A stretch of 64,000 bases of DNA from positions 62,001-126,000 of the forward strand of contig NZ_VAUP01000004.1 in assembly GCF_005871085.1 (NCBI RefSeq), read 5' to 3'. This stretch comes from Xanthobacter autotrophicus. Lineage in GTDB: Bacteria > Pseudomonadota > Alphaproteobacteria > Rhizobiales > Xanthobacteraceae. Below the pieces are notes generated by a model, which saw only the letters and a list, made by a program, of their open reading frames with translations, was not told the DNA's origin and made no database searches. Below, piece by piece: positions 30,705 to 49,112 of the stretch. Position numbers and translations under genes: made by a program. Position 1 is the stretch's first letter; the number at the start of each line of letters is the position of its first letter.

Positions 30705-30714
30705 GGGGGCGATC

Positions 30715-32347: not shown

Positions 32348-32423
<76 letters not shown>

Positions 32424-32779: not shown

Positions 32780-33306
32780 GGCAAAAATTACTTTTCACTC
32801 TGACAGTGAAAAGCGTTTTATTCAACGCGCTGCTGAACAAAAATGATGTGAGCTGGCCATCGTCGAACAAAATATCCAAAGCGATACGAGCGGCCTTGAG
32901 CTGTTCGGTCGTCGTTGCGGTCAGCTCTTCGGTCAAGCGCGGTTGATATCGGGATAATGCATCTTCACGGCGCGAAGGAGGGGAAGAGCCCGTTGCGGCG
33001 AGACACGCGCCGGGAGACCGAGAAAACAATGCCCGCAGGTTTTGAACCCGAAGTGGCGACCGCAGCCTTCATATTGTCGATTTGCTTCAGGATCGTCTGA
33101 GCGTGCTCATAGAAGGTCTACCCTGCCTCGGTGGGCTTGACGCCCTGGGCGGAACGATGGAGCAGCTGAGTGCCCACTCGTCTCCAAGGGGCGAAGCTGA
33201 TGGCAGAGGAGAGGGCGGCTCGTGCGACGTTGAGCACACCGACGGCACTCGACAATGAGCCCTGGTCGGCGATCGCCATAAAGTAGCGAAGCTGGCGAAG
33301 TTACAT
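32780..33306 (-). pseudogene. LysR-family regulator remnant
   Basis: Reading from ATG 33306, the second codon is TAA. After it comes a clear LysR helix-turn-helix: LRQLRYFMAIADQGSLSSA, VGVLNVARAALSSAIS, a locally shifted stretch, then GTQLLHRSAQGVKPTEAG, a TAG, and TFYEHAQTILKQIDNMKAAV. After further frame changes the effector domain follows as VKMHYPDIN and LTEELTATTTEQLKAARIAL, DILFDDGQLTSFLFSSALNK. At least two stops and three frameshifts make it inactive. G+C is visibly lower than in core genes. A 9-bp hairpin (CTTTTCACT/AGTGAAAAG, 32791-32813) lies at its decayed end. The stretch 32483-32779 shows nothing I recognise. Confidence 0.85.
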
Positions 33307-33847
33307 GCAGGTGCCGGGAGTTGCGACGTGGGCGGATCCGGTTGACGCGAGGCAACCGAATAAACGCGTTCTCTTGGGAACGCGACGTACCCCATTTCGC
33401 CAGTTTGCCCAGTGCCCCGGTGGCAGGCTCGCTTAAAGCGACTTCCCCGGCGTTGGCCGCGTGCTGGAACCCGGAGCGCAACTTCGATTGCGCCCCAATC
33501 CCAATATGGGGCGTCTGGGTCAACGACGGCATGGCATGAAGGCGCCGTGCGGACATCGAACCGAAGCGAATCTTCTGTCATTTCGGAGGGTGATGCACCC
33601 GAACCGCCATCCGTTTCTCCCGCTGCAGCGGGACTTGCGCGCGACGACGTCCATGCCACTCCAGGGGCTCGCTGATCTGCGGCACCCTTGTCCCGAGGCG
33701 ATGTCGAGGGATGGCAAAAATTGCGATGCACCGTTCGAACAATTTCAACTATGCGGCAGCGCACAACGGGCGCCGCGCAGGTCATAATCCCGTCGTTCAA
33801 TCCGATCCGGACAAGAGATTGGAAGGACAGGTCCAGATGGGGAAATT
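33307..33847. other. Degenerate region upstream of the nitrile-associated ABC importer
   Basis: About 540 bases with no recognisable protein on either strand and lower G+C than core genes. It probably contains the promoter of the importer-nitrilase unit next to it, but no operator stands out. Confidence 0.55.
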
Positions 33848-34627
33848 ATGGCACAAGATATTCAACTCAGACTTCGGTCGATACGAAAGTCGTTCGATGG
33901 GCAAAATGGCAGGATTGATGTCCTGAAGGGCGTCGACTTCGATGTCTACGAGCGTGACTTCGTTAGCATTATCGGGCCAAGCGGCTGCGGAAAGTCGACG
34001 GTCTTCAATATCGTCGCCGGCCTGCTCGCGCCGGACGACGGGGACATCATCTATCGGCACGAACGGGTCTCCAACCTGCGTGGACGCGTCGGCTACATGA
34101 TGCAGCGGGACCTGTTGTTTCCGTGGCGTACGGTGCTTGAGAACATCATGCTGGGTCCGGAGATGCAGCGGCTGCCCAAGGCCGAGGCCCGCGACAACGC
34201 GATGGAGTATCTCAACACGTTCGGGCTCGCGGGGGTCGAGAATGCCTATCCGAAAATGCTTTCGGGTGGCATGCGCCAGCGGGTGGCGCTGATCCGCACT
34301 CTGCTTACGGATCCCGATATTCTCTTGCTCGACGAGCCCTTTTCCGCGCTCGACTACCAGACGCGGCTCTATCTCGAAGGCGTGCTGGTCGATGCCGTGG
34401 AGACCTTCAACAAGACCGTGATCCTCGTGACTCATGACATCGACGAGGCCGTTGCGCTGTCCAAGAGGGTGGTGGTGCTGGGCGGCAAGCCTTCCCAGGT
34501 CAAGAGCGTTCACCAGATCGATCTTGGAAGCCGTTCTCCCGTCGGGGCACGCAGCGACCCCCATTTCTCTGAATACTTCCATACGCTCTGCGGGGAACTC
34601 GATATCCAGACGAAGGTGAAGCAATGA
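33848..34627 (+). CDS. ABC transporter ATP-binding protein, nitrate/sulfonate/taurine type
   Basis: ATPase (259 residues) of an SsuB/TauB-like importer. Walker A GPSGCGKST at 43-51, Q-loop GYMMQRDLLFPWRTVLENI, signature LSGGMRQRVALIRTL at 138-152, Walker B ILLLDEPFSALD at 158-169, and switch VTHDIDEAVAL. It is the first gene of a unit of ATPase, permease, two binding proteins and nitrilase; it overlaps the permease by 4 bases. The nitrilase in the same unit suggests that the cargo is a nitrile or related small organic; that is inference. Confidence 0.92.
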   Translation: MAQDIQLRLRSIRKSFDGQNGRIDVLKGVDFDVYERDFVSIIGPSGCGKSTVFNIVAGLLAPDDGDIIYRHERVSNLRGRVGYMMQRDLLFPWRTVLENIMLGPEMQRLPKAEARDNAMEYLNTFGLAGVENAYPKMLSGGMRQRVALIRTLLTDPDILLLDEPFSALDYQTRLYLEGVLVDAVETFNKTVILVTHDIDEAVALSKRVVVLGGKPSQVKSVHQIDLGSRSPVGARSDPHFSEYFHTLCGELDIQTKVKQ

Positions 34628-35478
34628 GCCGCGCCACAGCCCTCTCCCGCTCCCGCGCCCGGTCTATGAATCCGCGCCGCACCAGGCATGGCTTGATCAA
34701 CACCTCCCTCGGCCGAGGCCTCATCCAGCTCGTTTCCGTCGCCGCTGTCCTTGCCCTGTGGCAGGTCGGGGTCGAAATGGGCTGGGTCTCCGCCTTCATG
34801 GTGGGCGCTCCGCGCCAGATCCTGAAGGTTCTGGTGGATGGCATCGTATCCGGCAGTCTGCTCGTGGACACGTACTACACGGTGGTCGAAGCGGTCCTTG
34901 GCTTCGTCATCGGCACGGCGCTGGGCTCGTTCGCCGGCCTTGCCCTGTGGTACTCGCCCCTCGTGGCGCGGCTGACGGAGCCGTTCCTCATCGCCATCAA
35001 CAGCGTGCCGAAAATCGCCTTCGGGCCGATCGTGATCCTGTGGTTTGGAACCGGCCTGGTCTCCAAGGTGGCGCTGGCCGTCTCGCTCACCGCCATCGTG
35101 GCACTCATCGCCGCCTATCAGGCGGCCAAGACTGCCGACCGGGACCTTCAGGCCCTGTTGCTCACGCTGGGCGCGGACAAGAACCAGGTGTTCTTCAATC
35201 TCGTGGTGCCGTCCTCCCTGCCGGCCATCATCGCCACCTTCCACATCAACATCGGCTTCGGTCTCGTGGGGGCGGTAGTCGGTGAATTCATATCCTCCGA
35301 ACGCGGCCTTGGGCATCTCATCTTCACGGCCTCGGGACTTTACGATCTCAACACGGTGTGGGCGGGACTGTTCATGCTGATGCTGATCGGCTTCCTGCTG
35401 TACTTCGTCATAGACTTCATCGAACGCCGCCTGTTGCCCTGGAAGGAAGCTGCCACGGCTAACGCGTTTCACGTCTGA
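34624..35478 (+). CDS. ABC transporter permease, nitrate/sulfonate/taurine type
   Basis: Inner-membrane permease of 284 residues, SsuC-like. After a basic N-terminus comes LIQLVSVAAVLALWQVGVE, then VVEAVLGFVIGTALGSFAGL, PKIAFGPIVILWFGTGLVSKV and the coupling loop FHINIGFGLVGAVVGEFISSERGLG, followed by two last helices. It overlaps the ATPase gene and is followed after 17 bases by the first binding protein. Confidence 0.92.
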   Translation: MSRATALSRSRARSMNPRRTRHGLINTSLGRGLIQLVSVAAVLALWQVGVEMGWVSAFMVGAPRQILKVLVDGIVSGSLLVDTYYTVVEAVLGFVIGTALGSFAGLALWYSPLVARLTEPFLIAINSVPKIAFGPIVILWFGTGLVSKVALAVSLTAIVALIAAYQAAKTADRDLQALLLTLGADKNQVFFNLVVPSSLPAIIATFHINIGFGLVGAVVGEFISSERGLGHLIFTASGLYDLNTVWAGLFMLMLIGFLLYFVIDFIERRLLPWKEAATANAFHV

Positions 35479-35495
35479 TACGAACAGGTGACATC

Positions 35496-36509
35496 ATGAA
35501 AAATGTGAGAAATATACTGAGTTGCGCGTTCGTGGCCCTGGCCTGTGCCTGTGGCGCGATGGCCCCCGCCCGCGCGGAATATCGCAAGGTCGTGCTTTCC
35601 CAGTTGTTCCAGTCCATTCAGTTGTTGCCGGTCTATGTCGCCATCGATGGCGGCTTCTTCCGTGCCCAGGGCCTGGACGTGACGAAGCAGACCGCGGGGT
35701 CGGCCAACGCCGCGCTGTCGGCCCTGATATCCAAGAGCGCCGATTTCTCCCTTCATGGGCCGGAATGGACGGCCATCGCGGCCGAGAAGGGCGCTTCGGT
35801 GCAGGTGGTCGCCAGCGTCGTATCGCGGCCGTCGTTCTGGATCGCGGCGGCTCCGGACTTCAAGTTCCAGAGCGTGTCCGACCTCAAGGGGGAGACCGTC
35901 GTGGCTGGCCTCATGCCGACCACCAGCACCTCCCTCTTCATGAAGCTGCTCAAGCAGAACGGGCTGGAGCCCAAGACAGACGTGAAGATCACGCAGGTCC
36001 AGATCGGGTCCGAGCTTGGACCTCTGCTGGCTGGGCAGGCGCGCGTCGCGGTGCTTTACCAGCCGGGCCTGGACCAGGCGGTGGCACAGGGCATGAAAGT
36101 CGTCTACGGCTTTTCTCAGCTCTATGACGAATACACCGTTGCCGCGATCTCCACCCGTAAGGACGTGGATCCCGACACCGCTCAGCGCTTCGTCACCGGG
36201 CTCCAGAACGCGCTTGTGTTCATGCAGGACAATCCCGAGCGCACGAAGGACATCGCCCGGCAGGAGTTTCCGAGCCTGCCGCCCGCGGTGGTCGATGCCG
36301 CGGTCACGCGCATGCTGAACGAGCACATCTACTCCACTTCGGTCGCCATCTCGCAGAAGGCCTTCGAGGCGGCCATGCAGACCCAGGTCGACCTCGGCAA
36401 CCTGAAGGCCATGCCCGGCTACACCGACGTGGTCAACGACACCTACGCGCGCAAGGACACCCATGCGCGCAAGGACACCCACACGCGCAAGGGTCTCTCG
36501 GCGAACTGA
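35496..36509 (+). CDS. ABC transporter substrate-binding protein (NMT1/SsuA-like), copy 1
   Basis: Periplasmic binding protein, 337 residues, with signal peptide MKNVRNILSCAFVALACACG...APARA. Mature sequence: YRKVVLSQLFQSIQLLPVYVAIDGGFF, SADFSLHGPEWTAIAAEKGA, TTSTSLFMKLLKQNGLEP, TQVQIGSELGPLLAGQARV. It is a clear tandem paralogue of the next gene. Its C-terminus ends in a short repetitive tail (three ARKDTH-like units, about 36443-36495) absent from the second copy. The two receptors probably serve one membrane channel with different ligand preference; that is inference. Confidence 0.9.
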   Translation: MKNVRNILSCAFVALACACGAMAPARAEYRKVVLSQLFQSIQLLPVYVAIDGGFFRAQGLDVTKQTAGSANAALSALISKSADFSLHGPEWTAIAAEKGASVQVVASVVSRPSFWIAAAPDFKFQSVSDLKGETVVAGLMPTTSTSLFMKLLKQNGLEPKTDVKITQVQIGSELGPLLAGQARVAVLYQPGLDQAVAQGMKVVYGFSQLYDEYTVAAISTRKDVDPDTAQRFVTGLQNALVFMQDNPERTKDIARQEFPSLPPAVVDAAVTRMLNEHIYSTSVAISQKAFEAAMQTQVDLGNLKAMPGYTDVVNDTYARKDTHARKDTHTRKGLSAN

Positions 36510-36551
36510 CCTGAGATGTCCGTCGTCCTCCCACAGATGAAGGATCGAAGC

Positions 36552-37532
36552 ATGACTTCGCTTTTCCAACGCCTGCTTGCCGGCATCATTGCCGCGACGC
36601 TGGCCATCGGCGTGGCCGCACCCGCCGCCGCCGAAAACCGCAAGGTGGTCCTGTCCCAGCTGTTCCAGTCGGTCATGTTCCTGCCGGTCTACGTGGCCAT
36701 CGACAAGGGCTTCTTCGCCCAGGAGGGGCTTGATGTGCGCAAGGACACCTCCGGCTCGCCCAATGCCTCCCTGTCGGCGGTTATCGCCAGGAGCGCCGAC
36801 TTCTCGCTCCATGGACCCGAATGGACCGCCATAGCCGCGTCCAAGGGAGCGCCGGTGCAGATCGTCGCCGGGGTGGTGAACCGGGCCGCCGTCTGGATCG
36901 CGGCCCGGCCCGACATCGACTACAAGGACCCGGCGAGCTTCTCCGGCAAGACTGTCGCAACCGGCATGATGCCGATCGCCAGTACCTCGTTGTTCACCAA
37001 GCTGCTCCGAGAGAGCGGCGTTGATCCGGCCAAAGAGCACATCCAGGTGATGCAGGTTCAGGCCGGTTCCGAGCTCGGCCCATTGCTGGCGGGCAAGGCC
37101 GATGTGGCGGTGCTGTACGAGCCAGCCCTCGACCAGGTGGCGGCCAAGGGCATGAAGGTGATCCACAGCTTCCCGGCCCAGTACGGACCTTATCTGCTGT
37201 CGGCCATCACCACCCGCCGCGACGCCGACCCTGACATGGTGCAGCGGTTCGTGACGGGTCTTCAGCACGCGCTGGCCTTCATGCGTGCCAATCCAAAAGC
37301 TGCAACGGAGGTGGCGAAGGCGCAGTTTCCGAGCATCGAGCCCGCGGTGATCGAGAGCGCGGTGGGGCGTATGCTCGACGAGCAGGTCTATCCGGCATCG
37401 GTGGAGATTTCCCCCGCCGCCCTGAAGATCGCCATGGAAACCCAGATTTCCCTCGGCAACCTGAATGCCCAGCCTGATTTCGAAACGTTCGTCGGCGGCC
37501 GCTTTATCGCCGGTGCCCTGGCAGCGAACTAA
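36552..37532 (+). CDS. ABC transporter substrate-binding protein (NMT1/SsuA-like), copy 2
   Basis: Paralogue of the preceding gene, 326 residues from ATG 36552 (AAGGA upstream; an earlier in-frame ATG at 36516 lacks a signal context). Signal peptide MTSLFQRLLAGIIAATLAIG...APAAA. It shares RKVVLSQLFQSVMFLPVYVAID, SADFSLHGPEWTAIAA, and GSELGPLLAGKADVAVLYEPALDQV with copy 1 throughout its length. Retained duplication of a receptor within one operon suggests divergence in ligand range. Confidence 0.9.
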   Translation: MTSLFQRLLAGIIAATLAIGVAAPAAAENRKVVLSQLFQSVMFLPVYVAIDKGFFAQEGLDVRKDTSGSPNASLSAVIARSADFSLHGPEWTAIAASKGAPVQIVAGVVNRAAVWIAARPDIDYKDPASFSGKTVATGMMPIASTSLFTKLLRESGVDPAKEHIQVMQVQAGSELGPLLAGKADVAVLYEPALDQVAAKGMKVIHSFPAQYGPYLLSAITTRRDADPDMVQRFVTGLQHALAFMRANPKAATEVAKAQFPSIEPAVIESAVGRMLDEQVYPASVEISPAALKIAMETQISLGNLNAQPDFETFVGGRFIAGALAAN

Positions 37533-37585
37533 AGCATTTTCGCGCGAAGTGGATACCGGTTCGCGTGAAGAAAATGCGTCAAGAC
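37533..37585. repeat. Rhizobial-type intergenic element, copy 1
   Basis: Begins AGCATTTTCGCGCGAAGTGG, continues with ACCGGTTCGCGTGAAGAAAA and ends TGCGTCAA. The same sequence, inverted and longer, lies at 58169-58272. It sits directly at the stop codon of the second binding-protein gene, inside the importer-nitrilase unit, and contains the hairpin-forming pairs TTTTCGCGCGAA and TTCGCGTGAA. Confidence 0.8.
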
Positions 37586-37637
37586 AAGCCCCACCAAATC
37601 AGCGGCTCCATTTTTCCATCAGCTGAAGGAACAGATC

Positions 37638-38720
37638 GTGACTTCCTATCCAAGGTTCAAGGCGGCCGCGTGCCACGTAGCCCCCATCTATTTCGATACG
37701 CCAGCCACGGTGGACAAGGCCTGCGCCCTGATCGCCGAGGCCGCGCGCAACGGGGCCACGTTGGTGACTTTTCCGGAGGCCTACATCTCCTCCTTCCCGG
37801 TCTGGTGCGGTGTATGGGCGCCGGTGGACACCCACGAGTTCTTCGCAAAGTTCGCCGGCTCCGCGATCCGCATCGACGGCCCGGAGATGGCGCGCCTGCG
37901 GGAAGCCGCGCGGCGTCACCAGGTGTTTGTCTCCATCGGCATCAACGAGGGCACGCCCATCAGCCTTGGCTGCGTGTGGGACACCAACGTGCTGATCGGC
38001 GATGACGGCACGATCCTGAACCGCCATCGCAAGCTGATGCCGACCCATTGGGAGCGCCTGGCATGGGCCCCGGGCGATGGCAGCGGCCTGCGCGTGGTGG
38101 ACACCAGCATCGGCCGCATCGGCGCGTTGATCTGCGGCGAGAACACCAATGCCCTCGCCCGCTTCGCGCTCATGTCGCAGGGGGAGAGCGTTCACATTTC
38201 CTGCTTCTCGCCGCGTTATCCGACCCATCCCCCGGGCGAGGCGGCCTATGATCTGGAGGCCTCCATCCGGCTACGCACCGGGGCCCACGCGTTTGAAGGC
38301 AAGTTGTTCAACGTGGTGGTATCCGGCTTCCTGCCGCCCGAGGCCATCGATATGATCAGCCGCGGCAACGCGCGTGTCCATGAGTTGCTGGAAGGCGCGT
38401 CGAAGAGCATCTCCATGATCCTCGGCCCCGACGGCACGCCCGTCAGCGACGTGATCCGCGATCAGGAGGGTATCGTCTACGGCGACATCGACCTCTCGCG
38501 TTGTGTCGTTCCCAAGCAATTCCAGGACGTGGTCGGTTACTACAACCGTTTCGACGTGTTCGAGTTCAAGGTGAACCGGCGTGCGCTCGCACCGGCGCAG
38601 TTCCAGGACGGCTCCTTCTCCGAGAGCTCCGCCACGAATGGCGGGACGGGCGGCAGCACGGGCGGATCTTGGCCGTTGAGCGAGACGACGCCATTCACCG
38701 CGGTCGCCCAGGCGTCGTGA
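37638..38720 (+). CDS. Nitrilase (aliphatic/arylacetonitrile type)
   Basis: Hydrolyses a nitrile to carboxylic acid and ammonia (EC 3.5.5.1). 360 residues from GTG 37638, preceded by AAGGA. The catalytic triad is present: Glu47 in LVTFPEAYISSFP, Lys132 in NRHRKLMPTHWER, Cys166 in GALICGENTNALAR. CGEN with HW after the Lys places it among true nitrilases rather than amidases or cyanide hydratases. The last 40 residues are Ser/Gly/Thr-rich and not conserved. It ends the importer operon and stands near mandelate racemase and hydroxyacid dehydrogenase genes, so a cyanohydrin such as mandelonitrile is a reasonable candidate substrate; that is inference. Confidence 0.9.
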   Translation: MTSYPRFKAAACHVAPIYFDTPATVDKACALIAEAARNGATLVTFPEAYISSFPVWCGVWAPVDTHEFFAKFAGSAIRIDGPEMARLREAARRHQVFVSIGINEGTPISLGCVWDTNVLIGDDGTILNRHRKLMPTHWERLAWAPGDGSGLRVVDTSIGRIGALICGENTNALARFALMSQGESVHISCFSPRYPTHPPGEAAYDLEASIRLRTGAHAFEGKLFNVVVSGFLPPEAIDMISRGNARVHELLEGASKSISMILGPDGTPVSDVIRDQEGIVYGDIDLSRCVVPKQFQDVVGYYNRFDVFEFKVNRRALAPAQFQDGSFSESSATNGGTGGSTGGSWPLSETTPFTAVAQAS

Positions 38721-38770
38721 CCCAGGGTACGCTCCAGACAGAAGGCGGCGCGCCCTTGCGGGCGCGCCGC

Positions 38771-39742
38771 TCACCTGGCGATGCGGGAGCCCCGCCGCTG
38801 CGCGACCGGTTGGCTTTCAGTGTTGATGGCCGTCGGCAACCGTTCAGGCGGATCATGCTGAAGGTTCGCCTGGAGCCACGCAATGAAGGCGCTGACCTGT
38901 GGGCGCGCCAGGGCCTCCGGCGTGGCCGTCGCGTAATAGGCGTAAGCCGGAACCGCTTCCAGATCGAACAGGCGAACCAGCCGGCCGGCGGACAGGTAGT
39001 TCACGATCATGCTCTGACGCGCCAGCGCGATGCCCTGGTGGCAGGCCGCGGCTTCCACGACCAGGCCGATATCGACGAACTGGATGGCGGAGCACGGTTC
39101 GGGGAATTGGAGCGACGCCGCGCGGAACCAGGGTTGCCACGGTTCGATGATGCATTGCAGCAGGCTGCCCTTGAGAATGTCGATGGGCTCCATGAACGGC
39201 CCGTGCGCCCTGGCGTAGGCGGGGCTGCAGACCGGAAAGACCTGCTCCTCAAGGATGCTGACGGCGTTGAAGCCCGGGTAGACCCCGTTGCCGAAGCGGA
39301 TTTCCACGTCCGCATGCTCGGCCTTCAGCCCGACCAGTGGCACCGACAGATGGAGTTCAAGGTCGACATCAGGAAAAGCTTCGCGGATGCGATCGAGCCG
39401 GGGGACCAGGATCTGCGTCGCGAAGGTGGGTGGCGCGCAGACCTGGATCCGGCGCCGGCGCTGGACGCGCTGGGCGGCGCCATCCGACAGGTGGCTGAGC
39501 ACGCCCAGCGCTTCTCGCACCGCGCCGAGATATTCGTGGCCTTTTGCGGTCAGGATGAGGTCGCCTTCGGTCTTGGCGAATAACGGCGTGCCGATCAAAG
39601 TTTCGAGTTGCTTGATCCGGTGGCTCAGGGCGCTCGGCGTGATGCACAATTCCCGTGCCGCCAGAACCCCCGTGCCGAGACGCGCCCGCGCCTCGAAGGC
39701 GAGCAGGCAATGGGTGGGCGGAAGCTGGTATCTGGTGCTCAT
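38771..39742 (-). CDS. LysR-family regulator (GcvA-like)
   Basis: Transcriptional regulator of 323 residues. HTH at residues 8-65: LPPTHCLLAFEARARLGTG, AARELCITPSALSHRIKQLE, GTPLFAKTEGDLILTAKG. Effector domain follows with RIQVCAPPTFATQILVPRL and HADVEIRFGNGVYPGF, as in the GcvA subgroup. It converges on the nitrilase gene (50 bases between stops) and is divergent from the next LysR gene. It probably controls part of this cluster. Confidence 0.9.
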   Translation of the reverse strand: MSTRYQLPPTHCLLAFEARARLGTGVLAARELCITPSALSHRIKQLETLIGTPLFAKTEGDLILTAKGHEYLGAVREALGVLSHLSDGAAQRVQRRRRIQVCAPPTFATQILVPRLDRIREAFPDVDLELHLSVPLVGLKAEHADVEIRFGNGVYPGFNAVSILEEQVFPVCSPAYARAHGPFMEPIDILKGSLLQCIIEPWQPWFRAASLQFPEPCSAIQFVDIGLVVEAAACHQGIALARQSMIVNYLSAGRLVRLFDLEAVPAYAYYATATPEALARPQVSAFIAWLQANLQHDPPERLPTAINTESQPVAQRRGSRIAR

Positions 39743-40090
39743 ATCATCTGATGGTTCAAGGTTTTATGGCTCGATGCCGGACGCCGGGCACGCCAGATGC
39801 CAATGGGAAAAAGCACGCTGCCGTCTGGTTCGCGAGGGCCGAGGCTATGGACAAGCAAAATGCATACCCCGGCTGCAAGGCAAGCTTTTTCGAAGCCCGG
39901 TGGCATTTCCGTGTGATGCAGGGAGATCCTCGGGCCGTGCGACCGCTGTCAGGATCGCTCAAATGTGGGTCAGGGTGCCGTTAAATCGAGCGCATCACGC
40001 CGCCTCTATTCTGGGTAGCCTCTTTCATTCTAGCGAAATCCCTGGCCCGCATCGGCCCCGAGCAAGGTGCACATGAAGAGCGAGGTGCAC
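39743..40090. other. Divergent region between two LysR genes
   Basis: 348 bases without a credible gene, expected to hold both LysR promoters. No clear LysR box palindrome could be singled out by eye. Confidence 0.5.
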
Positions 40091-40999
40091 ATGGAAATCC
40101 GTCAATTCCGCTGCTTTGTCGCCGTCGCGGAGCAACTGCATTTCAGCCGGGCGGCAGAGCAACTCGGCATGGCGGCCCCCTCCATGACGAAGCAGATCCA
40201 GGACATGGAGCGCGCCCTGGGCGTGCGCCTCTTCCACCGGACCAAGCGGTCGGTCCAGCTCACTGCCGCCGGGTCGTTGTTCCTGGATGACGCGCGGCGG
40301 GTTCTGGAACAGGCAGAGCGGGCCCAAGACACCGCCCGCCGCGCCGGTCGGGGGGAACTGGGCCGCATCGTCATCGGCTATGTCGCGTCCACCGGCTATG
40401 CCGGCGTGCTCCAGGAGCAGGTGGCAGCCTTCCGCTGCACGCACCCCAGCATCGACCTCGAATTCAGGGAGGTGGCGATGGACCTCCTGCCCGAGATGCT
40501 CGACGACGGGCGTATCGACATTGCCTTTCTGCGTCCACCCATGGCGTATCCGCCCGGCATCTTCGCTGTGCCGCTGCTGCGCGATCCATTCGTGGTCGCG
40601 CTCCCGGAAAGGCACCCGCTCGGCACCCGCGCGGTGATCGAGCCGCGCGATCTCGCGGGTGAGATCTTCGTGCTTCCCGAACAGGATGCGGGGACCTGGG
40701 AAGTGGCACGACGCGGGGGCTTCGATCCCAAGCTTGGCCCGAGGCCGGGCAGCCTTGCCGCTGTGGTCATTCTGGTGTCGCTTGGCGCCGGGATCGCCAT
40801 CGTGCCGGGTTCATTGTTCCGTGCGGTGAGCGTGGAGCACGTGGTGTATCGCCAGCTTTCGACATCTCCGATCCTGTCGGAGATCGCGGCGGCTTTCCGG
40901 CGTACCGAATGGGCTCCGGCGACGAAGGCCTTTATCGCGCAGATCCGTGCGGCTGTCCGGTGTCCTGGCGAGGAAACACCGGCGATGCCACGCCGCTAA
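40091..40999 (+). CDS. LysR-family regulator (CatR/BenM-like)
   Basis: Regulator of 302 residues from ATG 40091. HTH: MEIRQFRCFVAVAEQLHFSR, AAEQLGMAAPSMTKQIQDME, GVRLFHRTKRSVQLTAAG. The effector domain (VIGYVASTGYAGVLQEQV, DGRIDIAFLRPP) is of the type that senses aromatic acids in catabolic operons. It precedes the aminotransferase, dehydrogenase and racemase genes on the same strand and likely controls them. Confidence 0.9.
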   Translation: MEIRQFRCFVAVAEQLHFSRAAEQLGMAAPSMTKQIQDMERALGVRLFHRTKRSVQLTAAGSLFLDDARRVLEQAERAQDTARRAGRGELGRIVIGYVASTGYAGVLQEQVAAFRCTHPSIDLEFREVAMDLLPEMLDDGRIDIAFLRPPMAYPPGIFAVPLLRDPFVVALPERHPLGTRAVIEPRDLAGEIFVLPEQDAGTWEVARRGGFDPKLGPRPGSLAAVVILVSLGAGIAIVPGSLFRAVSVEHVVYRQLSTSPILSEIAAAFRRTEWAPATKAFIAQIRAAVRCPGEETPAMPRR

Positions 41000-41132
41000 A
41001 TTCTCCGGCAGGAAATTATTTCGCTGAATATCATGAATTCACAGAAATAATCGATGATGAAATAGTTGTTTCCAAGAATTTCTGCCCGCAGCCGTGGCCG
41101 GTGCCGCGCGCCGCTGGCGCCCGGAGACCTCC

Positions 41133-42350
41133 ATGCTCAAGCTCGATTTTCATCCGTCCGGCCGCCACGTCCTCCAGATCCCAGGCCCGAGCCCGGTGCC
41201 CGCCCGCCTCCTGCGAGCCATGAGCTACCCGACGATCGACCATCGCGGCCCGGAATTCGCCATGCTCGGACTGAAGGTCCTTGCCGGAATCAAGCGCATC
41301 TTCAAGACCACCCAGCCGGTCATCATTTATTCTTCGTCGGGGACCGGTGCTTGGGAGGGTGCGCTGGTCAATACTCTCTGCCCGGGCGACCACATTCTCA
41401 TGTACGAGACCGGTCACTTCGCCAGCCTGTGGCGTGAGATGGCGGAAAACCTCGGCCTGAGGCCGGAACGCATCGGGCGCGACGGCGTCGAGGGCTGGCG
41501 CCGGGGGGTTGAAGCCGACCTGATCGAGCAACGCCTGAGGGCGGATGGTGGTCACGCCATCAAGGCAGTCTGCGTGGTCCATAACGAGACCTCCACCGGC
41601 GTGACGTCCGACATTGCGTCGGTGCGGCGCGCCATCGATGCCGCCGGCCACCCTGCCTTGCTTCTCGTCGACACCATCTCCGGCCTCGCCTCGGCTGACT
41701 ACCGGCATGACGCTTGGGGCGCGGACGTGACGGTCTCGGGATCGCAGAAGGGGCTGATGCTGCCACCCGGCCTCGGCTTCAATGCCGTGTCGCAGAAGGC
41801 CCTGCACGCCCACGCCGCCGCGCGGCTACCCCGTAGCTACTGGGATTGGACGCCGATCCTGAAGGCTAACGAGACGGGATACTGGCCGACCACTCCCAAC
41901 ACGAACCTGCTCTATGCGCTGTCCGAAGCCATCGAGATGATCGAGGAGGAGGGCCTTGATCGCGTGTTCGCGCGCCACGCGCGCCTTGCCGAGGCCTGCC
42001 GGGCGGCGGTGCGCGGCTGGGGCCTCGACATCCAGTGCGCGGACCCACAGGTCTATTCCCCCGTGCTCACCGGCGTGATGATGCCCGAGGGTGTGGACGC
42101 CAATGCCGTTCGCCAGTGTATTGCGGAGACGTTCGACCTTTCCCTTGGCACTGGCCTCGGCAGGATGGCCGGCCGCATGTTCCGCATCGGTCACCTCGGC
42201 GACTGCAACGACCTGTCGCTCATGGCTGCGCTCACCGGCTGCGAGATGGGGCTGAAGCTGTCTGGCGTGCGGCTCGCCGGCAGCGGGGTGGTCGCTGCCA
42301 TGGATCTGCTCGCGCGCACCGAGGTGCACAGCCTCACCAAGGTCGCCTGA
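41133..42350 (+). CDS. Class V aminotransferase, serine/alanine-glyoxylate type
   Basis: PLP enzyme of 405 residues (ATG 41133). Conserved parts: HVLQIPGPSPVPARLLRAM, SSSGTGAWEGALVNTL (PLP phosphate), VVHNETSTGVTSD, LLLVDTISGLASADYRHDAW (PLP-binding Asp), and the Schiff-base Lys206 in VSGSQKGLMLPPG. It resembles serine-glyoxylate aminotransferase. No hydroxypyruvate reductase or other serine-cycle gene is near; beside a 2-hydroxyacid dehydrogenase it may transaminate the 2-oxo acid formed, or remove glyoxylate. The true amino donor and acceptor are unknown. Confidence 0.88.
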   Translation: MLKLDFHPSGRHVLQIPGPSPVPARLLRAMSYPTIDHRGPEFAMLGLKVLAGIKRIFKTTQPVIIYSSSGTGAWEGALVNTLCPGDHILMYETGHFASLWREMAENLGLRPERIGRDGVEGWRRGVEADLIEQRLRADGGHAIKAVCVVHNETSTGVTSDIASVRRAIDAAGHPALLLVDTISGLASADYRHDAWGADVTVSGSQKGLMLPPGLGFNAVSQKALHAHAAARLPRSYWDWTPILKANETGYWPTTPNTNLLYALSEAIEMIEEEGLDRVFARHARLAEACRAAVRGWGLDIQCADPQVYSPVLTGVMMPEGVDANAVRQCIAETFDLSLGTGLGRMAGRMFRIGHLGDCNDLSLMAALTGCEMGLKLSGVRLAGSGVVAAMDLLARTEVHSLTKVA

Positions 42351-42380
42351 ACGGCCCGGCCATCTGTGATCGGACGCGCC

Positions 42381-45300
42381 ATGACGCACACAGTCCTCCC
42401 CGGACGTTCACCGAGACGGGAGACCGGCCAGGGTTCTGCATCCCCGTTCGCCCGATGCCTCGCCAGGGAAATGCGCGGCGACGTGCTGTTCGATGAGGGG
42501 AGCCGGGGACGCTATGCCACCGATGCTTCCATCTACCAGATCATGCCCATCGGCGTGGTCGTGCCCCGCGACCAGGCCGACGCGCGCATCGCACTCGATA
42601 TCGCGCGCGACCATGGCATGCCGTTCCTGGCCCGGGGTGCGGGGTCGAGCCAGTGCGGTCAGACCATAGGTGAGGCGCTTGTCCTCGACACCACGCGGTG
42701 GCTCAACAAGGTCATCCACTTCGATCCGTCGCGGCGGATGGTGACCGTGGAGCCCGGCATCGTCCTCGATCATCTCAACGCGATCCTGAAGCCCCATGGC
42801 TTGTGGTATCCGGTGGATGTCTCCACCAGCGCGCAAGCCACCATCGGCGGCATGGCGGGCAACAACTCGTGCGGCTCGCGCTCGCTGCACTACGGCAACA
42901 TGGTTCACAATGTGGAGGCCATCGACGCGGTGCTGCCGGACGGCAAGGAGCTGGAGTTCGGTCCCCTTGCGCAGATGGAGGCGACGCCATACGCGCAGCA
43001 TCTCGTCGGGGCCATTCAGTCCATCGCGCGGGGCGTGGATGGCGAGCTTGCCGCCAACACGCCCAAGGTGCTGCGCCGCGTCGCCGGCTACAACCTCGAC
43101 TTGTTCAACTGCCAGAATCCGAAGCCCTACACGCTGGACGGAATGCCCAATCTGTCCCACCTGCTGGTGGGCTCCGAGGGCACGCTTGCCTTCAGCCGGC
43201 AGATCACCCTGCGCCTTTCTCCCCTGCCGGTTAACAAGGTGCTCGGGGTGGTGAACTTTCCCACGTTCCACCAGGCCATGGATCTGACGCGGCACATCGT
43301 CGGCCTCGCCCCCATGGCGGTGGAGCTGGTGGACCGCACCATGATCGATCTGGCGCTCCACAATCCCGCCTTCCGTCCAGTGATCGAGAGCGCGCTGGTG
43401 GGCTCGCCCCAGGCCCTGCTGCTGGTGGAGTTCGCCGGCGACGATCTGGATGTCCAGAGGCGAGCCCTGAAGCATCTCGCCACCCTCATGGGCGACCTCG
43501 GCCTGCCCGGCTCGGTGGTGGAAATGGCCGGCGCTGCGGAGCAGAAGGCCCTGTGGGACGTGCGCAAGGCCGGGCTCAACATCATGATGAGCATGAAGGG
43601 GGACGGCAAGCCGATTTCCTTTATCGAGGATTGCGCGGTTCCTCTCGAACATCTCGCCGAATACACACAGACCCTGACCGAGCTGTTCCGCCGATACGGC
43701 ACCGAGGGTACCTGGTATGCCCATGCAGGAGTGGGGTTGCTGCATGTGCGCCCGATCCTCGACATGCGGCGCGACGGGGCGGCGAAAATGCGGGCTATGG
43801 CGGAGGAAGCCTCCGCGCTGGTGCGCCGCTTCAAGGGGGCCTATTCGGGCGAGCATGGCGACGGCATCTGCCGGGGCGAGTGGGTCGCCTGGCAATACGG
43901 GCCGAAGGTCAACGCCGCGTTCCGGGCCATCAAGGCCCTGTTCGACCCGGACAACCGCTTCAGCCCGGACCGCATCGTCGATCCGCCGCGCATGGATGAT
44001 GCCCGGCTGTTCCGGTTTCCGCCGGGCTATGGCGAAACGCCGCTTGAGCCCAGGCTCGACTGGTCACGGTGGAACGTGCGGCGCGATGCGGCGACAGGCA
44101 TCGAGAGCGCACCTGGCACCGGCGGCGATCGCACCGGTGGCTTGGCCAAGGCCGTCGAGATGTGCAACAACAACGGGCATTGCCGTAAATTCGATGCGGG
44201 CACCATGTGCCCCTCCTACCGTGTCACCCGGGACGAGAAACACGTCACGCGCGGGCGCGCCAACACGCTGCGCCTCGCCCTGTCGGGCCAGATCGGCCGC
44301 GACGGGCTTGCCAGCCCGCTGGTCAAGGAAGCTCTGGACCTTTGCGTGAGCTGCAAGGGCTGCAAGCGAGACTGCCCCACCGGGGTGGACATGGCCCGCG
44401 TGAAAATCGAGGCGCGGGCCGCCTGGACCGCACGGCACGGCCTTCGCCTGCGGGACCGGCTCGTGGCCTACATGCCGTTCTATGCGCCTGTCGTCAGCCG
44501 CCTGTCCTGGCTGTTGGCGATCGGCGAGAACATTCCCGTCGTTTCGCCGTGGCTGAAGCGGCGCATCGGCCTTGCACCCGAACGCTCGCTGCCGCGCTTC
44601 CGCCGGCCGTTCCTTGCGAGGCCCGCGCCACGCCACGCCGCGCCCGCCGACAGGGAGGTGTTCCTGTTCATCGACACCTTCAACAATTCCATGGAGCCCG
44701 AGAACGCGGCCGCTGCTCGCGACGTGCTTCAGGCGGCGGGCTATCGGGTGCATTTGCATGGCGGCAGGGGCAAGCAACCCTTGTGTTGCGGGCGCACCCT
44801 GCTGGCTGCCGGCCTCGTCGACGCGGCGAAGGCCCAAGCCCGGCGGGTCTTGGACACGCTTCTGCCTTTCGTGGAGCGGGGTGTTCCGATCGTCGGGCTG
44901 GAGCCGTCGTGCCTCCTGACACTCCGGGACGAATTTCTCGGCTACGGCTTCGGCGATGCGGCCCACAAGCTGTCGCAGAGCGCGTATCTGTTCGAGGAAT
45001 TTCTGGTGTGCGAACGCGCCGCCGGCCGCATGCAGCTGGCTCTCCATCCCCTCGACGCCACGACCGCCCTGCTGCATGGCCATTGTCACCAGAAGGCATT
45101 CGACGCCATGCGGCCGGTACGAGCCGTCTTGTCCTGGATCCCGGGGCTCGAGGTCCGCGAGGTGGAAGGCTCGTGCTGCGGCATGGCCGGAAGCTTCGGC
45201 TACGAAGCGGAGCATTACGCCATGTCTCGCGCCATGGGCGAACTCACCTTGCTGCCGGCCGTGCGGGAGGCCTCGCCCGGGACGATCGTCATCGCCGATG

Positions 45301-45410
45301 GCACGAGCTGCCGCCACCAGATCCTCGACTGCGCGCAAGTGGAGGCGCGGCATGTCGCCTGCGTTCTCGCCGCTGCCCTGATCCCCCCGGCGCGTTTGTG
45401 CCCGACCTGA
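42381..45410 (+). CDS. Large FAD/4Fe-4S D-2-hydroxyacid dehydrogenase (YdiJ-like)
   Basis: A 1009-residue multidomain flavoprotein. FAD_binding_4 domain at about 45-200 (PFLARGAGSSQCGQTIG, QATIGGMAGNNSCGSRSLHYG), FAD-oxidase C-terminal domain to about 545 (FKGAYSGEHGDGICRGEW, FDPDNRFSPDRI), Fe-S region at about 590-670 (CNNNGHCRKFDAGTMCPSYR and CVSCKGCKRDCPTG), and two CCG domains (CCGRTLLAAG near 808, CCGMAGSFGYE near 931). This order is that of YdiJ, a D-2-hydroxyglutarate dehydrogenase in some bacteria. It likely oxidises a D-2-hydroxy acid and passes electrons to the membrane quinone chain or ETF. Between aminotransferase and mandelate racemase, a D-mandelate-like substrate is plausible. 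Confidence 0.88.
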   Translation: MTHTVLPGRSPRRETGQGSASPFARCLAREMRGDVLFDEGSRGRYATDASIYQIMPIGVVVPRDQADARIALDIARDHGMPFLARGAGSSQCGQTIGEALVLDTTRWLNKVIHFDPSRRMVTVEPGIVLDHLNAILKPHGLWYPVDVSTSAQATIGGMAGNNSCGSRSLHYGNMVHNVEAIDAVLPDGKELEFGPLAQMEATPYAQHLVGAIQSIARGVDGELAANTPKVLRRVAGYNLDLFNCQNPKPYTLDGMPNLSHLLVGSEGTLAFSRQITLRLSPLPVNKVLGVVNFPTFHQAMDLTRHIVGLAPMAVELVDRTMIDLALHNPAFRPVIESALVGSPQALLLVEFAGDDLDVQRRALKHLATLMGDLGLPGSVVEMAGAAEQKALWDVRKAGLNIMMSMKGDGKPISFIEDCAVPLEHLAEYTQTLTELFRRYGTEGTWYAHAGVGLLHVRPILDMRRDGAAKMRAMAEEASALVRRFKGAYSGEHGDGICRGEWVAWQYGPKVNAAFRAIKALFDPDNRFSPDRIVDPPRMDDARLFRFPPGYGETPLEPRLDWSRWNVRRDAATGIESAPGTGGDRTGGLAKAVEMCNNNGHCRKFDAGTMCPSYRVTRDEKHVTRGRANTLRLALSGQIGRDGLASPLVKEALDLCVSCKGCKRDCPTGVDMARVKIEARAAWTARHGLRLRDRLVAYMPFYAPVVSRLSWLLAIGENIPVVSPWLKRRIGLAPERSLPRFRRPFLARPAPRHAAPADREVFLFIDTFNNSMEPENAAAARDVLQAAGYRVHLHGGRGKQPLCCGRTLLAAGLVDAAKAQARRVLDTLLPFVERGVPIVGLEPSCLLTLRDEFLGYGFGDAAHKLSQSAYLFEEFLVCERAAGRMQLALHPLDATTALLHGHCHQKAFDAMRPVRAVLSWIPGLEVREVEGSCCGMAGSFGYEAEHYAMSRAMGELTLLPAVREASPGTIVIADGTSCRHQILDCAQVEARHVACVLAAALIPPARLCPT

Positions 45411-45427
45411 CATTCCGGAGAACTGCC

Positions 45428-46507
45428 ATGCCTGCTCCCGCCATCACCCGCGTTGTCGTGCGCCCGGTCGTCGCCCCTCTGCCTCGCCCGCTGCGAACCG
45501 CGAGCGGCATGATGGAGAGCGCGCCACTGGTTCTCGTGGATATCGAAACCTCGGCCGGCATCACGGGGCATGCCTATGCCTTCGCCTACACGCCGGTGCT
45601 GCTGGGCGCCCTGGCGCGGCTGACGGGCGATGTGGGGACGCTGCTGGAAGGACGCGCGATCTATCCCGCCGATCTCACCCGCTGGCTGCGCGGGCGCTTC
45701 GTCATCGCCGGTACGTCCGGCCTGCTCGACATGGCTCTCGCCGTACTGGACATTGCCGCTTGGGACGCCCACGCCAAGCTTGCCGGATTGCCACTCGCGC
45801 GCCTTCTCGGCGGTGATGTCGCCCCCCTTCCAGCCTATGCGAGCTTCGGCATGGATGGGTTGGAGGACACTGCCTCGGCGGCCGCCGGCGCGGCGGCGGA
45901 AGGGTTCGGCGCGGTCAAGATCAAGATCGGCTACGAGACATTCGCGCAGGACCTTGCCGTGGTCCGGGCGACGAAGCACGCCTTGGGGGATGCCGTCGCG
46001 TTGCTCGTTGACTACAACCAGAGCCTCACCGTTCCCGAAGCGGTCCTGCGCTGCCGCGCGCTCGACCATGAGGGCCTGTCGTGGATCGAGGAGCCGACCC
46101 GGGCCGACGACACGGCGGGGCACGCCCGTATCGCCGCCGAGATCGAGACGCCGCTTCAGCTGGGTGAAAGCCTGTTTGGGCCGCAGGCCATCGCGGACAG
46201 CATCCGGGGCGGGGCCTCCGACCTGATGATGCCGGACCTGATCAAGGTGGGCGGCGTAACCGGGTGGCTTGCCGCCTCCGCCATCTGCCAAGCGGCGCGC
46301 ATGCCGGTGAGCAACCACTTCTTCCAGGAGGCGAGCGCCCATCTCATGGCGGCGACGCCCACCGCTCATCTCGTCGAGTTTTTCGACATTGCCGGCCCGA
46401 TCCTCCGGGTTCCCTTGCAGGCCATCGACGGCAGGGTCCGCGCAAGCGAAGAGCCGGGCCTCGGGATCGAATGGAGCGAAGAGGCGGTCGCCCGCTATGC
46501 GGCGTGA
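45428..46507 (+). CDS. mdlA: Mandelate racemase
   Basis: Enolase-superfamily enzyme interconverting (R)- and (S)-mandelate or a close analogue (EC 5.1.2.2). 359 residues, the same length as Pseudomonas putida MdlA. Every catalytic residue falls at the same number: base pair Lys166 (with Lys164, AVKIKIGY) and His297 (VSNHFFQEASAHLM), metal ligands Asp195 (LLVDYNQSL), Glu221 (WIEEPT) and Glu247 (LGESLF), Asp270 of the His-Asp dyad, and Glu317. Ser139 and Asn197 are also kept. It begins 17 bases after the dehydrogenase stop, so the two are co-transcribed. Other 2-hydroxy acids remain possible. Confidence 0.85.
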   Translation: MPAPAITRVVVRPVVAPLPRPLRTASGMMESAPLVLVDIETSAGITGHAYAFAYTPVLLGALARLTGDVGTLLEGRAIYPADLTRWLRGRFVIAGTSGLLDMALAVLDIAAWDAHAKLAGLPLARLLGGDVAPLPAYASFGMDGLEDTASAAAGAAAEGFGAVKIKIGYETFAQDLAVVRATKHALGDAVALLVDYNQSLTVPEAVLRCRALDHEGLSWIEEPTRADDTAGHARIAAEIETPLQLGESLFGPQAIADSIRGGASDLMMPDLIKVGGVTGWLAASAICQAARMPVSNHFFQEASAHLMAATPTAHLVEFFDIAGPILRVPLQAIDGRVRASEEPGLGIEWSEEAVARYAA

Positions 46508-47554: not shown

Positions 47555-48043
47555 TCATGGTATCCAGGTGGTGCGGACGACGAAGGCGAGCCAGACCAGC
47601 GCTCCGAGGGTCGTGGCCTGCTGCGCCCCGCGATAGTTTTCCGCGATCAATGCCACCAGCGAGGGCAACAGCGCCGCCCCTGCGGCGCCCGAGAGGGCCT
47701 GGGCGATGATCATGACCGTGGCGTTGGGGCTGAAGGTCATCAGCACCTGCGCGAGGCCGAACAGCAGCACCACGATCCGGAACACCCGGACCGCGCCGAA
47801 ACGCTGGTTCAGCTTGGCACCGAGCATGACGAAGCCAGCCACGAGCATGGAGTACATGATGATGCCGGTGGCGACCGTGGTGGGCGGAACATTGAAGCTC
47901 GCCACCATGCCGCCGAGGGCCACGGGCAGCGAGGCGACGTTGAAGGACATCAGCACCTGGCCGAGCGCGATGGCGATCATGGGGACCCAGGAATCCCGCA
48001 CTTCCACGCCGGTGCCAGGTCGGGGCGTCGAAAGACTGGTCAT
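47555..48043 (-). pseudogene. Truncated MFS transporter
   Basis: From ATG 48043 the frame codes 162 residues of an MFS drug-type transporter: WVPMIAIALGQVLMSFNVAS, TVATGIIMYSMLVAGFVMLGAKL, AQALSGAAGAALLPSLVALI, AENYRGAQQATTLGALVWLA, then VVRTTWIP and stop. Homologues run to about 450-500 residues; only the first four or five helices remain. No continuation is found in the next 176 bases in any frame, so the 3' two thirds were deleted. It follows the glutaminase gene by 64 bases, a common pairing. Confidence 0.8.
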
Positions 48044-48107
48044 GAGTGCTTCCTCTCGTTCTTCTTTTTTTGCGGGCTCGAGGCACGGTCTGGGGTGGCG
48101 CGCGGCC

Positions 48108-49112
48108 TCAGACCTCCGGTGCGGAGACGAAGAGGTCCATGCCGAGGCGCTGGGATAGATAGCGCGCCGCCAACTGGCCCTTGATGCTGTTGCCGGCCCC
48201 GTCGAGAGGGGGCGCGAAAGTGCCGAGGCCGCCCTTGCCCGGCGAGACAGTGACGATGCCGCCGCCAATGCCGCTCTTGCCCGGCAGTCCGATCTCGTAG
48301 AGCCAGTCGCCGGAGGTCTCGTAGAGCCCCGCCGTGGTCATCACCGCGAGGGCGTAGTGGCAGACATGCGCATTCACGACGCGCTCACCGGTGACCGGAT
48401 TGACGCCGCCGTCGGCGAGGGTCGCCCCCATCACCGCCAGATCCTTCGCATTCACGTTGAGGGAGCACTGGCGGGTGTAGAGGTCGACCGCCTCGCCCGG
48501 ATCGCAATAGATGCGCCCCATGCTTTGCAGCATCCGGGCAATGGCGCGGTTGCGGAAATTGGTGTCGAGGGCAGAGGCGCAGACCTCCTCGTTCATCGAC
48601 AGGCGGCGCCCGGCGAAGCGGGAAAGACCCTCGTGGATGAAGGCCCATTTCTCCTCTCGCGTCGCCCCTGGAACGAGGCTGGTGGCGGCGATGGCGCCGG
48701 CATTCACCATCGGGTTGGTCAGGCCGCCGGGCATGGTCTCGATGGCGGCCAACGAGTTGAAGGCGCGTCCCGTGGCATTGGCGCCGAGCTTCGCGCGCGC
48801 CTCGGCGGGGCCGAAGAGCTGGCAGACCAGGGCGAAGATGAAGGGCTTCGATACGCTCATGATGGAGAAGTCGTGGTCGGTGTCGCCCGCGGCATAGACT
48901 CGTCCGCTGGTGCCCACGACGCAGACGCCGAACAGGTCGCGCGACACCCGGGCCAGCGCAGGATAGACCTGCGAGTTTTCTCCCTCGTCGTTGGATTTGA
49001 AGCGGTGGTAGGCCGAATTCACCAACCCTTCCACCATCTCAGCTTCAGGCAGATGACCTGTGGATACGTAGCTGTCAGAAATCATGTCGTCGTCAAAAGC
49101 AGGCATTGCCAT
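48108..49112 (-). CDS. glsA: Glutaminase A
   Basis: Hydrolyses L-glutamine to glutamate and ammonia (EC 3.5.1.2). 334 residues from ATG 49112, preceded by GGAGGA at five bases; the open frame before it lacks such a site. Beta-lactamase-like fold with the nucleophile in FSIMSVSKPFIFALV (Ser-x-x-Lys), NPMVNAGAIAATSLV, TNFRNRAIARML, and GKSGIGGGIVTVSPGKGGLG near the C-terminus. The MFS remnant next to it may once have been a partner transporter. Confidence 0.93.
   Translation of the reverse strand: MAMPAFDDDMISDSYVSTGHLPEAEMVEGLVNSAYHRFKSNDEGENSQVYPALARVSRDLFGVCVVGTSGRVYAAGDTDHDFSIMSVSKPFIFALVCQLFGPAEARAKLGANATGRAFNSLAAIETMPGGLTNPMVNAGAIAATSLVPGATREEKWAFIHEGLSRFAGRRLSMNEEVCASALDTNFRNRAIARMLQSMGRIYCDPGEAVDLYTRQCSLNVNAKDLAVMGATLADGGVNPVTGERVVNAHVCHYALAVMTTAGLYETSGDWLYEIGLPGKSGIGGGIVTVSPGKGGLGTFAPPLDGAGNSIKGQLAARYLSQRLGMDLFVSAPEV

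Follow-up and report, generated by a model that had tools for sequence, protein, structure and literature searches.

Which pathway, if any, is encoded by the ten genes that span positions 33848-46507 of a 64,000-nucleotide stretch of Xanthobacter autotrophicus DNA (contig NZ_VAUP01000004.1; the whole stretch is called the window)? Open reading frames and a Pfam search of the window showed all ten to be open and complete, as an earlier note on this DNA had listed them, with the domains ABC_tran, BPD_transp_1, two NMT1, CN_hydrolase, two LysR, Aminotran_5, FAD_binding_4 with FAD-oxidase_C, Fer4_8 and CCG, and MR_MLE (Table 1). These confirm the ATP-binding cassette (ABC) importer with tandem receptors (SBP1 and SBP2) ending in a nitrilase, the two LysR regulators (LysR_G and LysR_A) and the class V aminotransferase proposed in that note; a flavin adenine dinucleotide (FAD)/Fe-S dehydrogenase and a mandelate racemase-like enzyme complete the set. 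We propose, with a probability of about 0.55, that these genes make up a catabolic module for 2-hydroxynitriles which has spread horizontally, and we start from the two enzymes that recur together in other genomes.

Nitrilase and racemase recur as a pair

Gene families, catalytic residues, co-occurrence and clade structure were all obtained by computation. The nitrilase clears the curated cut-off of PF00795 (139 against 23.2 bits), and its best matches in the Protein Data Bank (PDB), 8uxu and 6zby, are both nitrilases. Across eight aligned nitrilases, Glu47, Lys132 and Cys166 do not vary, so the intact triad claimed for this enzyme stands. Membership of the Nit6803/Nit1C group (TIGR04048) was rejected, at 204 bits against an equivalog cut-off of 502.6.

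The racemase retains in alignment K164, K166, D195, N197, E221, E247, D270, H297 and E317 of mandelate racemase, which include the Lys166/His297 pair, Asp270, Glu317 and the metal ligands D195, E221 and E247. Its closest solved structure is the Pseudomonas putida mandelate racemase, at 337 bits; a chain named talarate/galactarate dehydratase reaches 150 bits. Among NCBIfam models the top score is for talarate/galactarate dehydratase (204 bits, below the cut-off of 500), which would suit a dehydratase or epimerase of another nitrile-derived acid, with the dehydrogenase and aminotransferase acting on glycolate and glyoxylate only; the glyoxylate-type aminotransferase and the bhc neighbours described below likewise need no racemase. 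Given the two scores among solved structures and the retention of both Lys166 and His297, we consider such an activity improbable.

Nitrilases (73-77% identical) and racemases (51-75%) of the same clades as those of the window occur together at six further loci (L066/L166, L167, L168, L169, L170 and L184), which bears out the link that the earlier note had proposed to check by a search for co-occurrence and to drop if the two never co-occurred. L066/L166 belongs to Rhizobiales bacterium 32-66-11 (G014), L167 to Rhizobiales 24-66-13, L168 to Ancylobacter dichloromethanicus, L169 to Methylobacterium sp. C25 and L170 to M. brachythecii (the G209 locus), and L184 lies on an Agrobacterium plasmid described below. 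The racemase and nitrilase of L066 and L167 are near-identical and count as one lineage, so that the six loci represent five lineages; with the window included, the two clades meet in seven loci and at least four genera. In L066, L167, L168, L169 and L170 the gene immediately after the racemase is the nitrilase.

Among 61 relatives (window genome included), a nitrilase of at least 70% identity is present in the window genome and G014 only, and a racemase of at least 60% in the same two. Across 397 genomes from the order, both enzymes are found, at the same cut-offs, in the window genome and G209 only. With the window counted, co-occurrence gives Fisher p values of 5e-4 (61 relatives) and 1e-5 (397 genomes), for cut-offs chosen after the lists had been seen. 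Scanning named-species genomes with two peptide patterns and a racemase alignment yielded 18 racemase loci, although such a scan misses many racemases, for example those of 46-49% found in the 397-genome set. All five scan loci with a racemase of at least 64% (L166-L170) have a nitrilase (73-77%) directly after it; the other 13 (racemase at most 54%, some on very short contigs) have no nitrilase match at 1e-6.

The claimed association of the dehydrogenase and the importer with this pair is seen in one intact and one decayed cluster for the former and in one other genome for the latter. Rhizobiales 24-66-13 carries an unbroken run of dehydrogenase (79%), racemase and nitrilase. Rhizobiales bacterium 32-66-11 has the order LysR_A (73%), aminotransferase remnant (84%, a 5' piece), dehydrogenase remnants (86%), racemase (74%) and nitrilase (76%); at L066:8452-8867 the aminotransferase and dehydrogenase are cut to short pieces, the LysR, racemase and nitrilase genes are open, and the genome has a separate aminotransferase-dehydrogenase pair (C235). 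Among the 213 plasmid records matched by the nitrilase, a single one exceeds 60%, namely pAt1 of Agrobacterium tumefaciens cl001, from walnut. Within 6.5 kb and in one direction, pAt1 encodes homologs of the ATPase (74%), permease (70%), nitrilase (74%), receptor (71%, nearest SBP1), racemase (51%) and LysR_G (51%).

A chance neighbourhood was rejected, as the pair recurs in other genera. Two unrelated operons side by side, one of importer and nitrilase for a plain nitrile or amide and one of aminotransferase, dehydrogenase and racemase for a hydroxy acid, would explain why the two halves form separate transcription units, each with its own LysR gene, why importer homologs (72/64/58%) in genome G007 adjoin a PF01425 amidase and an other-clade nitrilase (54%) without a racemase, and why aminotransferase-dehydrogenase pairs lack racemase and nitrilase matches in 22/22 loci elsewhere. 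The nitrilases placed directly after racemases in five loci and the importer, nitrilase and racemase running in one direction on pAt1 make this explanation very improbable.

Relatives of the importer and nitrilase are also found in other company. In a same-genus genome (L068:5240-9419) a PF01425 amidase gene comes after the orthologous importer, and a sister-group nitrilase gene is convergent; this suggests that the imported substrate may be an amide or a nitrile. Sister-group nitrilases (about 50-55%; L069, L071, L072, L218, L219 and L220) lie near ABC ATPase gene pairs in some genomes; in legume-associated bacteria, their plasmid-borne neighbours are acetate symporters, molybdopterin oxidoreductases or nitronate monooxygenases. 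For the receptors, solved structures gave two weak matches only (25 and 24 bits), whose names do not tell the ligand.

Trees and the history of the locus

In a 30-row tree the seven racemase-linked nitrilases form one clade (support 100/98), at one change, a count that none of 500 shuffles reached. A 22-row racemase tree places the seven nitrilase-linked racemases and that of Nocardia brevicatena in one clade (100/99), separate from a second (100/99) that holds the P. putida enzyme and those of Rhizobium rhizogenes K84, RCAM05350, Caballeronia, Cupriavidus and Variovorax. The nitrilase-linked racemases also differ from the P. putida enzyme at residues 22, 26, 29, 298 and 319: all seven nitrilase-linked racemases (7/7) have L22, S or T26, M29, F298 and F319, where P. 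putida has V22, V26, V29, L298 and L319. Residues 298 and 319 presumably line the pocket. Residues 22, 26 and 29 sit on the active-site flap touching the substrate side group (PMC9835602).

The neighbours differ as well. Genes for benzoylformate decarboxylase and a flavin mononucleotide (FMN) dehydrogenase accompany the racemase in K84, Caballeronia and Cupriavidus, the set is partly broken in RCAM05350, and Variovorax has an FMN dehydrogenase with indolepyruvate-oxidoreductase-type genes; in Nocardia an FMN dehydrogenase adjoins the racemase. The "mandelate racemase" label of the window's clade is put in question, and the nitrilase and racemase clades gain a shared, testable role.

Within its clade, the window racemase groups with those of Ancylobacter and the two Rhizobiales metagenome-assembled genomes (MAGs; 100/98, and 92/95 in a smaller tree). 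The window nitrilase groups with that of pAt1 (98/95, and 94/91 in a smaller tree), and forcing it into the Ancylobacter/MAG group was rejected in the approximately unbiased (AU) test (p-AU 0.0008), both constraint groups having been named after the trees were seen. The guanine-plus-cytosine (GC) content of the importer-nitrilase half is 0.60-0.65 per 2 kb, lower than most of the window. The locus thus resembles a mosaic of two types of operon, each of which has both enzymes elsewhere; the window keeps one of each enzyme. As the simplest reading we infer that a pAt1-type importer-nitrilase operon came beside a LysR-aminotransferase-dehydrogenase-racemase(-nitrilase) operon, and that one nitrilase and one racemase were kept; the first operon type has one example. 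No second copy of either gene was found within the window, and the survival of each function once argues that nitrilase and racemase serve one pathway.

A candidate route and its substrate

Mechanistically, the importer would bring in a nitrile or nitrile precursor, which the nitrilase would convert to a 2-hydroxy acid and ammonia. The racemase would interconvert both enantiomers of this acid, and the FAD/Fe-S enzyme would oxidise the D enantiomer to the 2-oxo acid, with electrons passing to the respiratory chain; the class V aminotransferase would then link the 2-oxo acid to amino acid metabolism. Reaction order, D specificity, electron acceptor, substrate and importer cargo are all conditional in this scheme. 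The substrate would more likely than mandelonitrile be a small aliphatic nitrile of the lactonitrile/glycolonitrile class, leading through lactate/glycolate and pyruvate/glyoxylate to alanine/glycine.

The dehydrogenase has, in order, the FAD_binding_4, FAD-oxidase_C, 4Fe-4S and CCG domains of an FAD/Fe-S D-2-hydroxyacid dehydrogenase, the CCG match being weak (22.2 bits, cut-off 20.6). It shares HVRPxLDM and GEHG stretches with Escherichia coli YdiJ. The domain set thus fits the YdiJ-like description given earlier, but the score against the YdiJ D-2-hydroxyglutarate dehydrogenase model NF049975 falls far below the equivalog cut-off (467 against 1350 bits). The suggestion that a D-type flavin/Fe-S enzyme replaces the FMN enzyme gains support, as mandelate clusters have an FMN hydroxyacid dehydrogenase in the place that this enzyme takes here. 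The aminotransferase has 6pk1, a serine-glyoxylate aminotransferase (SGAT), as its best PDB match (339 bits) and scores 428 bits, below the cut-off of 650, on the BhcA L-aspartate-glyoxylate aminotransferase model NF045640, on which the BhcA of M. brachythecii reaches 729 bits.

Outside the cluster, homologs of the aminotransferase (57-65%) and dehydrogenase (50-54%) are adjacent and divergent in 22/22 loci, that is, for all dehydrogenase matches above 700 bits other than the window's (in one the aminotransferase is truncated where the contig stops; L100, whose dehydrogenase is partial, is too short to judge). None of the 22 has a racemase or nitrilase match. A GntR-family gene lies near 9 of them and Tct transporter genes near 7-8, each typed in one member only. 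Within the family tree, the dehydrogenases of the window and L167 form a pair of their own (100/100). M. brachythecii has a GntG/threonine-aldolase-like gene adjoining the aminotransferase of its separate pair, and in C25 the corresponding aminotransferase lies about 3.4 kb from a bhcA-, bhcC- and bhcD-like gene set. A conversion of glycolate or D-lactate to the oxo acid and then the amino acid would fit such pairs.

As to the substrate, the nitrile-to-hydroxyacid logic of the earlier note is supported by the conservation and the probable mosaic history described above; its choice of mandelonitrile is weakened by the racemase clade, the neighbours and the missing decarboxylases. An aromatic pathway would run from mandelonitrile through nitrilase, racemase and D-mandelate dehydrogenase to benzoylformate, decarboxylated by an enzyme encoded elsewhere. 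The P. putida mandelate racemase is indeed the closest solved structure, and in K84 a related racemase (48%) is accompanied by nitrilases and the mandelate route. In a search at E<=1e-100, 10/65 genomes have a benzoylformate decarboxylase, three at 92% or more (the host and G014, with the cluster, and G011, without it) and seven at 44-50%; enzymes at least 90% identical to the host's occur in 2/6 cluster-bearing genomes (host included) and 1/59 others (Fisher p 0.02). At the same threshold none was found in 4/6 cluster-bearing genomes, those of M. brachythecii, C25, Ancylobacter and 24-66-13, three of which have no stated completeness. Neither a benzoylformate decarboxylase nor an FMN dehydrogenase, as in an mdl-type cluster, is among the ten genes; the host's decarboxylase and FMN_dh genes lie on other contigs, and no FMN dehydrogenase match was found in the cluster flanks read or on the window's contig. 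The racemase clade does not include the P. putida enzyme and has bulkier side chains at 29, 298 and 319, and the K84 nitrilases are 35% and 37% (over half the length) identical to the window's. We know of no role for an aminotransferase in the mandelate route. The aromatic pathway is, on balance, unlikely, and a non-mandelate substrate for the cluster somewhat likely.

An aliphatic 2-hydroxynitrile is the better, if unproven, guess. It is suggested by an LctP lactate/glycolate permease gene (over the TIGR00795 cut-off) between the nitrilase and a dehydrogenase start in C25, by BhcR, BhcA, BhcC and BhcD genes, all over curated cut-offs, beside LysR_A, nitrilase and racemase in M. brachythecii, by the glyoxylate-type aminotransferase, and by M29, F298 and F319. 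Spelled out in full, this would be a mobile pathway for aliphatic cyanohydrins (adducts of cyanide with formaldehyde or acetaldehyde) in Rhizobiales, including some methylotrophic genera, in which a nickel-free racemase would act on lactate or a different unactivated 2-hydroxy acid and supply the single-chain dehydrogenase and a glyoxylate/pyruvate aminotransferase; so specific a version is doubtful. If the aliphatic reading is true, it would describe a bacterial route using cyanohydrins as nitrogen and carbon source and a nitrilase and racemase enzyme set for hydroxy acid chemistry.

Several points weigh against a 2-hydroxynitrile module with an aliphatic substrate. The pAt1 racemase is only 51% identical and sits on a long branch; one clade of window and pAt1 racemases was not rejected (p-AU 0.064), which leaves the mosaic claim significant for the nitrilase alone. 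The dehydrogenase is absent from the Ancylobacter, M. brachythecii and pAt1 clusters, the first two genomes having a separate aminotransferase-dehydrogenase pair, and in C25 it is cut by the contig end. Cluster membership is thus seen for the dehydrogenase in the window, L167 and the L066 remnant, for the aminotransferase in the window and the L066 remnant only, and for the importer in the window and pAt1 only. No nitrilase match occurs at the locus of Nocardia, whose racemase belongs to the same clade, and L22 and S26 are shared with some mandelate-context racemases, so that only 29, 298 and 319 mark the clade. The bhc and permease neighbours come from one genome each. The host encodes a benzoylformate decarboxylase that shares 67% identity with the K84 enzyme, and its gene adjoins one of the membrane D-lactate-dehydrogenase type. 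A racemase would have no purpose for glycolate alone, which lacks a chiral centre, and lactate, being unactivated, is difficult for the mandelate racemase fold to turn over. According to two reviews (PMC9835602, PMC8142540), P. putida mandelate racemase is about 100-fold or about 318-fold slower on trifluorolactate than on mandelate, slow turnover which also means that unsaturation next to the centre is no absolute need. No experimentally tested member was found in the open-licence literature searched.

The host's decarboxylase and membrane D-lactate-dehydrogenase-type genes (G000:C22:345-3789, L227) possibly form a decarboxylating route that turns D-2-hydroxy acids into aldehydes.

Known systems, gene layout and flanks

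In the P. putida mdl pathway the racemase feeds one enantiomer to the dehydrogenase; its operon carries an FMN (S)-mandelate dehydrogenase and is not known to include a nitrilase. The mdl racemase has catalytic residues identical to the window's, though it belongs to another clade. Closer in composition, plasmid pAtK84c of K84 (CP000631.1) carries genes for an amidohydrolase/nitrilase, a nitrilase, benzoylformate decarboxylase, an FMN alpha-hydroxyacid dehydrogenase, mandelate racemase, an aldehyde dehydrogenase and catechol breakdown. Like the window, it joins nitrilase-family genes, a racemase homolog (48%) and a hydroxy acid-oxidising enzyme; unlike the window, its nitrilases are of another branch (35-37%), its oxidising enzyme uses FMN rather than FAD/Fe-S, it has decarboxylase and aromatic-ring genes, and no ABC importer or aminotransferase is annotated in the 19 kb read. 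A nitrilase of a mandelonitrile pathway, the mandelonitrile hydrolase bll6402 of Bradyrhizobium japonicum USDA110, was described by Zhu et al. (2007), as cited in PMC3599355; like the window's, it was assigned by its neighbours. Given the pAtK84c record and that work, the idea of a nitrilase-racemase-dehydrogenase route is not new. The earlier claim that no operon with this exact set is described holds to the extent that the whole set (importer, nitrilase and racemase clades, FAD/Fe-S dehydrogenase, aminotransferase) was not found in the open-licence literature searched.

Two further systems share parts. In Nit1C of Pseudomonas pseudoalcaligenes CECT5344 the nitrilase NitC acts on a cyanohydrin formed with cyanide (PMC8567248); Nit6803 is the nearest NCBIfam model of the window nitrilase, though at 204 bits against a cut-off of 503, and the partners that this paper names (sigma-54 regulator, radical SAM, acetyltransferase and AIR-synthase-type proteins) are missing from the window's ten genes. 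With glycolate oxidation and the beta-hydroxyaspartate cycle (glycolate oxidase, bhcABCD, BhcR, GlcR; PMC11323563) the window shares a BhcA-like aminotransferase and GlcD/GlcF-like domains; GntR-family genes near the parent aminotransferase-dehydrogenase pairs and true bhc genes beside the M. brachythecii racemase-nitrilase extend the likeness. In contrast, bhcB, C and D are absent from the ten genes, the dehydrogenase is one fused chain, and nitrilase and racemase are extra.

By gene order, the ten genes fall into two transcription units, importer-nitrilase and LysR-aminotransferase-dehydrogenase-racemase, with LysR_G convergent to the nitrilase; this corrects the single-operon view. Likely ATG starts were set by comparison with relatives for the aminotransferase (41133), racemase (45428) and SBP2 (36552). 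ATPase and permease genes overlap by 4 bases, 105 bases separate SBP2 from the nitrilase, 324 LysR_G from LysR_A and 15 the aminotransferase from the dehydrogenase, and the racemase lies close behind; SBP1 and SBP2 are a tandem duplicate. Promoter and terminator scans were at chance overall (2 found against 2.2 expected; 8 against 7.7). An 11-pair all-GC hairpin lies between the nitrilase and LysR_G, at 38745-38770.

Table 1. The ten genes of the locus (window positions).
Feature	Position	Strand	Evidence
ABC importer ATPase, SsuB/TauB type	33848..34627	+	PF00005 111 bits; 74% to pAt1 ATPase, 72% in G007
ABC importer permease	34624..35478	+	PF00528; 70% in pAt1, 64% in G007
SBP1, NMT1/SsuA-type periplasmic receptor	35496..36509	+	PF09084; 71% to sole receptor of pAt1 operon
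SBP2, second receptor	36516..37532, likely ATG 36552	+	PF09084; 56% identical to SBP1
Nitrilase, GTG start	37638..38720	+	PF00795 139 bits; Glu47-Lys132-Cys166; racemase-linked clade
LysR_G, GcvA-like LysR regulator	38771..39742	-	family searches; 51% ortholog in pAt1 operon
LysR_A, AlsR/HcaR-like LysR regulator	40067..40999	+	66-73% homologs beside racemase-nitrilase in L066/L166, L168, L170
Class V aminotransferase, glyoxylate-aminotransferase group (BhcA/SGAT-like)	41133..42350	+	PF00266; BhcA model; PDB 6pk1
Single-chain FAD + 4Fe-4S D-2-hydroxyacid dehydrogenase, YdiJ/GlcD-GlcF-like	42366..45410	+	domains; 79% homolog in L167
Mandelate-racemase-subgroup enolase-superfamily racemase	45428..46507	+	337 bits to P. 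putida mandelate racemase; catalytic residues

Upstream of the importer, a TctC-TctB-TctA-type carboxylate transporter operon (29043-32214) lies just before a tRNA-Lys gene (32348-32423); Tct genes also flank several aminotransferase-dehydrogenase pairs in relatives, with receptors only about 25% alike. An island inserted at this tRNA gene was considered and rejected: 20 bases from its 3' part (32399-32418) do not recur in the window when up to 3 mismatches are allowed. Between the tRNA gene and the importer operon, at about 33000-33350 on the minus strand, lies a LysR remnant with an internal stop (helix-turn-helix and GVKPTEAG, read by eye), where the GC content of the window is at its lowest (0.595). 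Downstream, an MFS-like transporter gene on the minus strand (47555-48190) is cut short after about 200 residues, as read by eye, and has probably decayed; it lies between a glutaminase gene (48108-49178, PF04960) and a gene that we take to encode a YciE-type ferritin-like protein.

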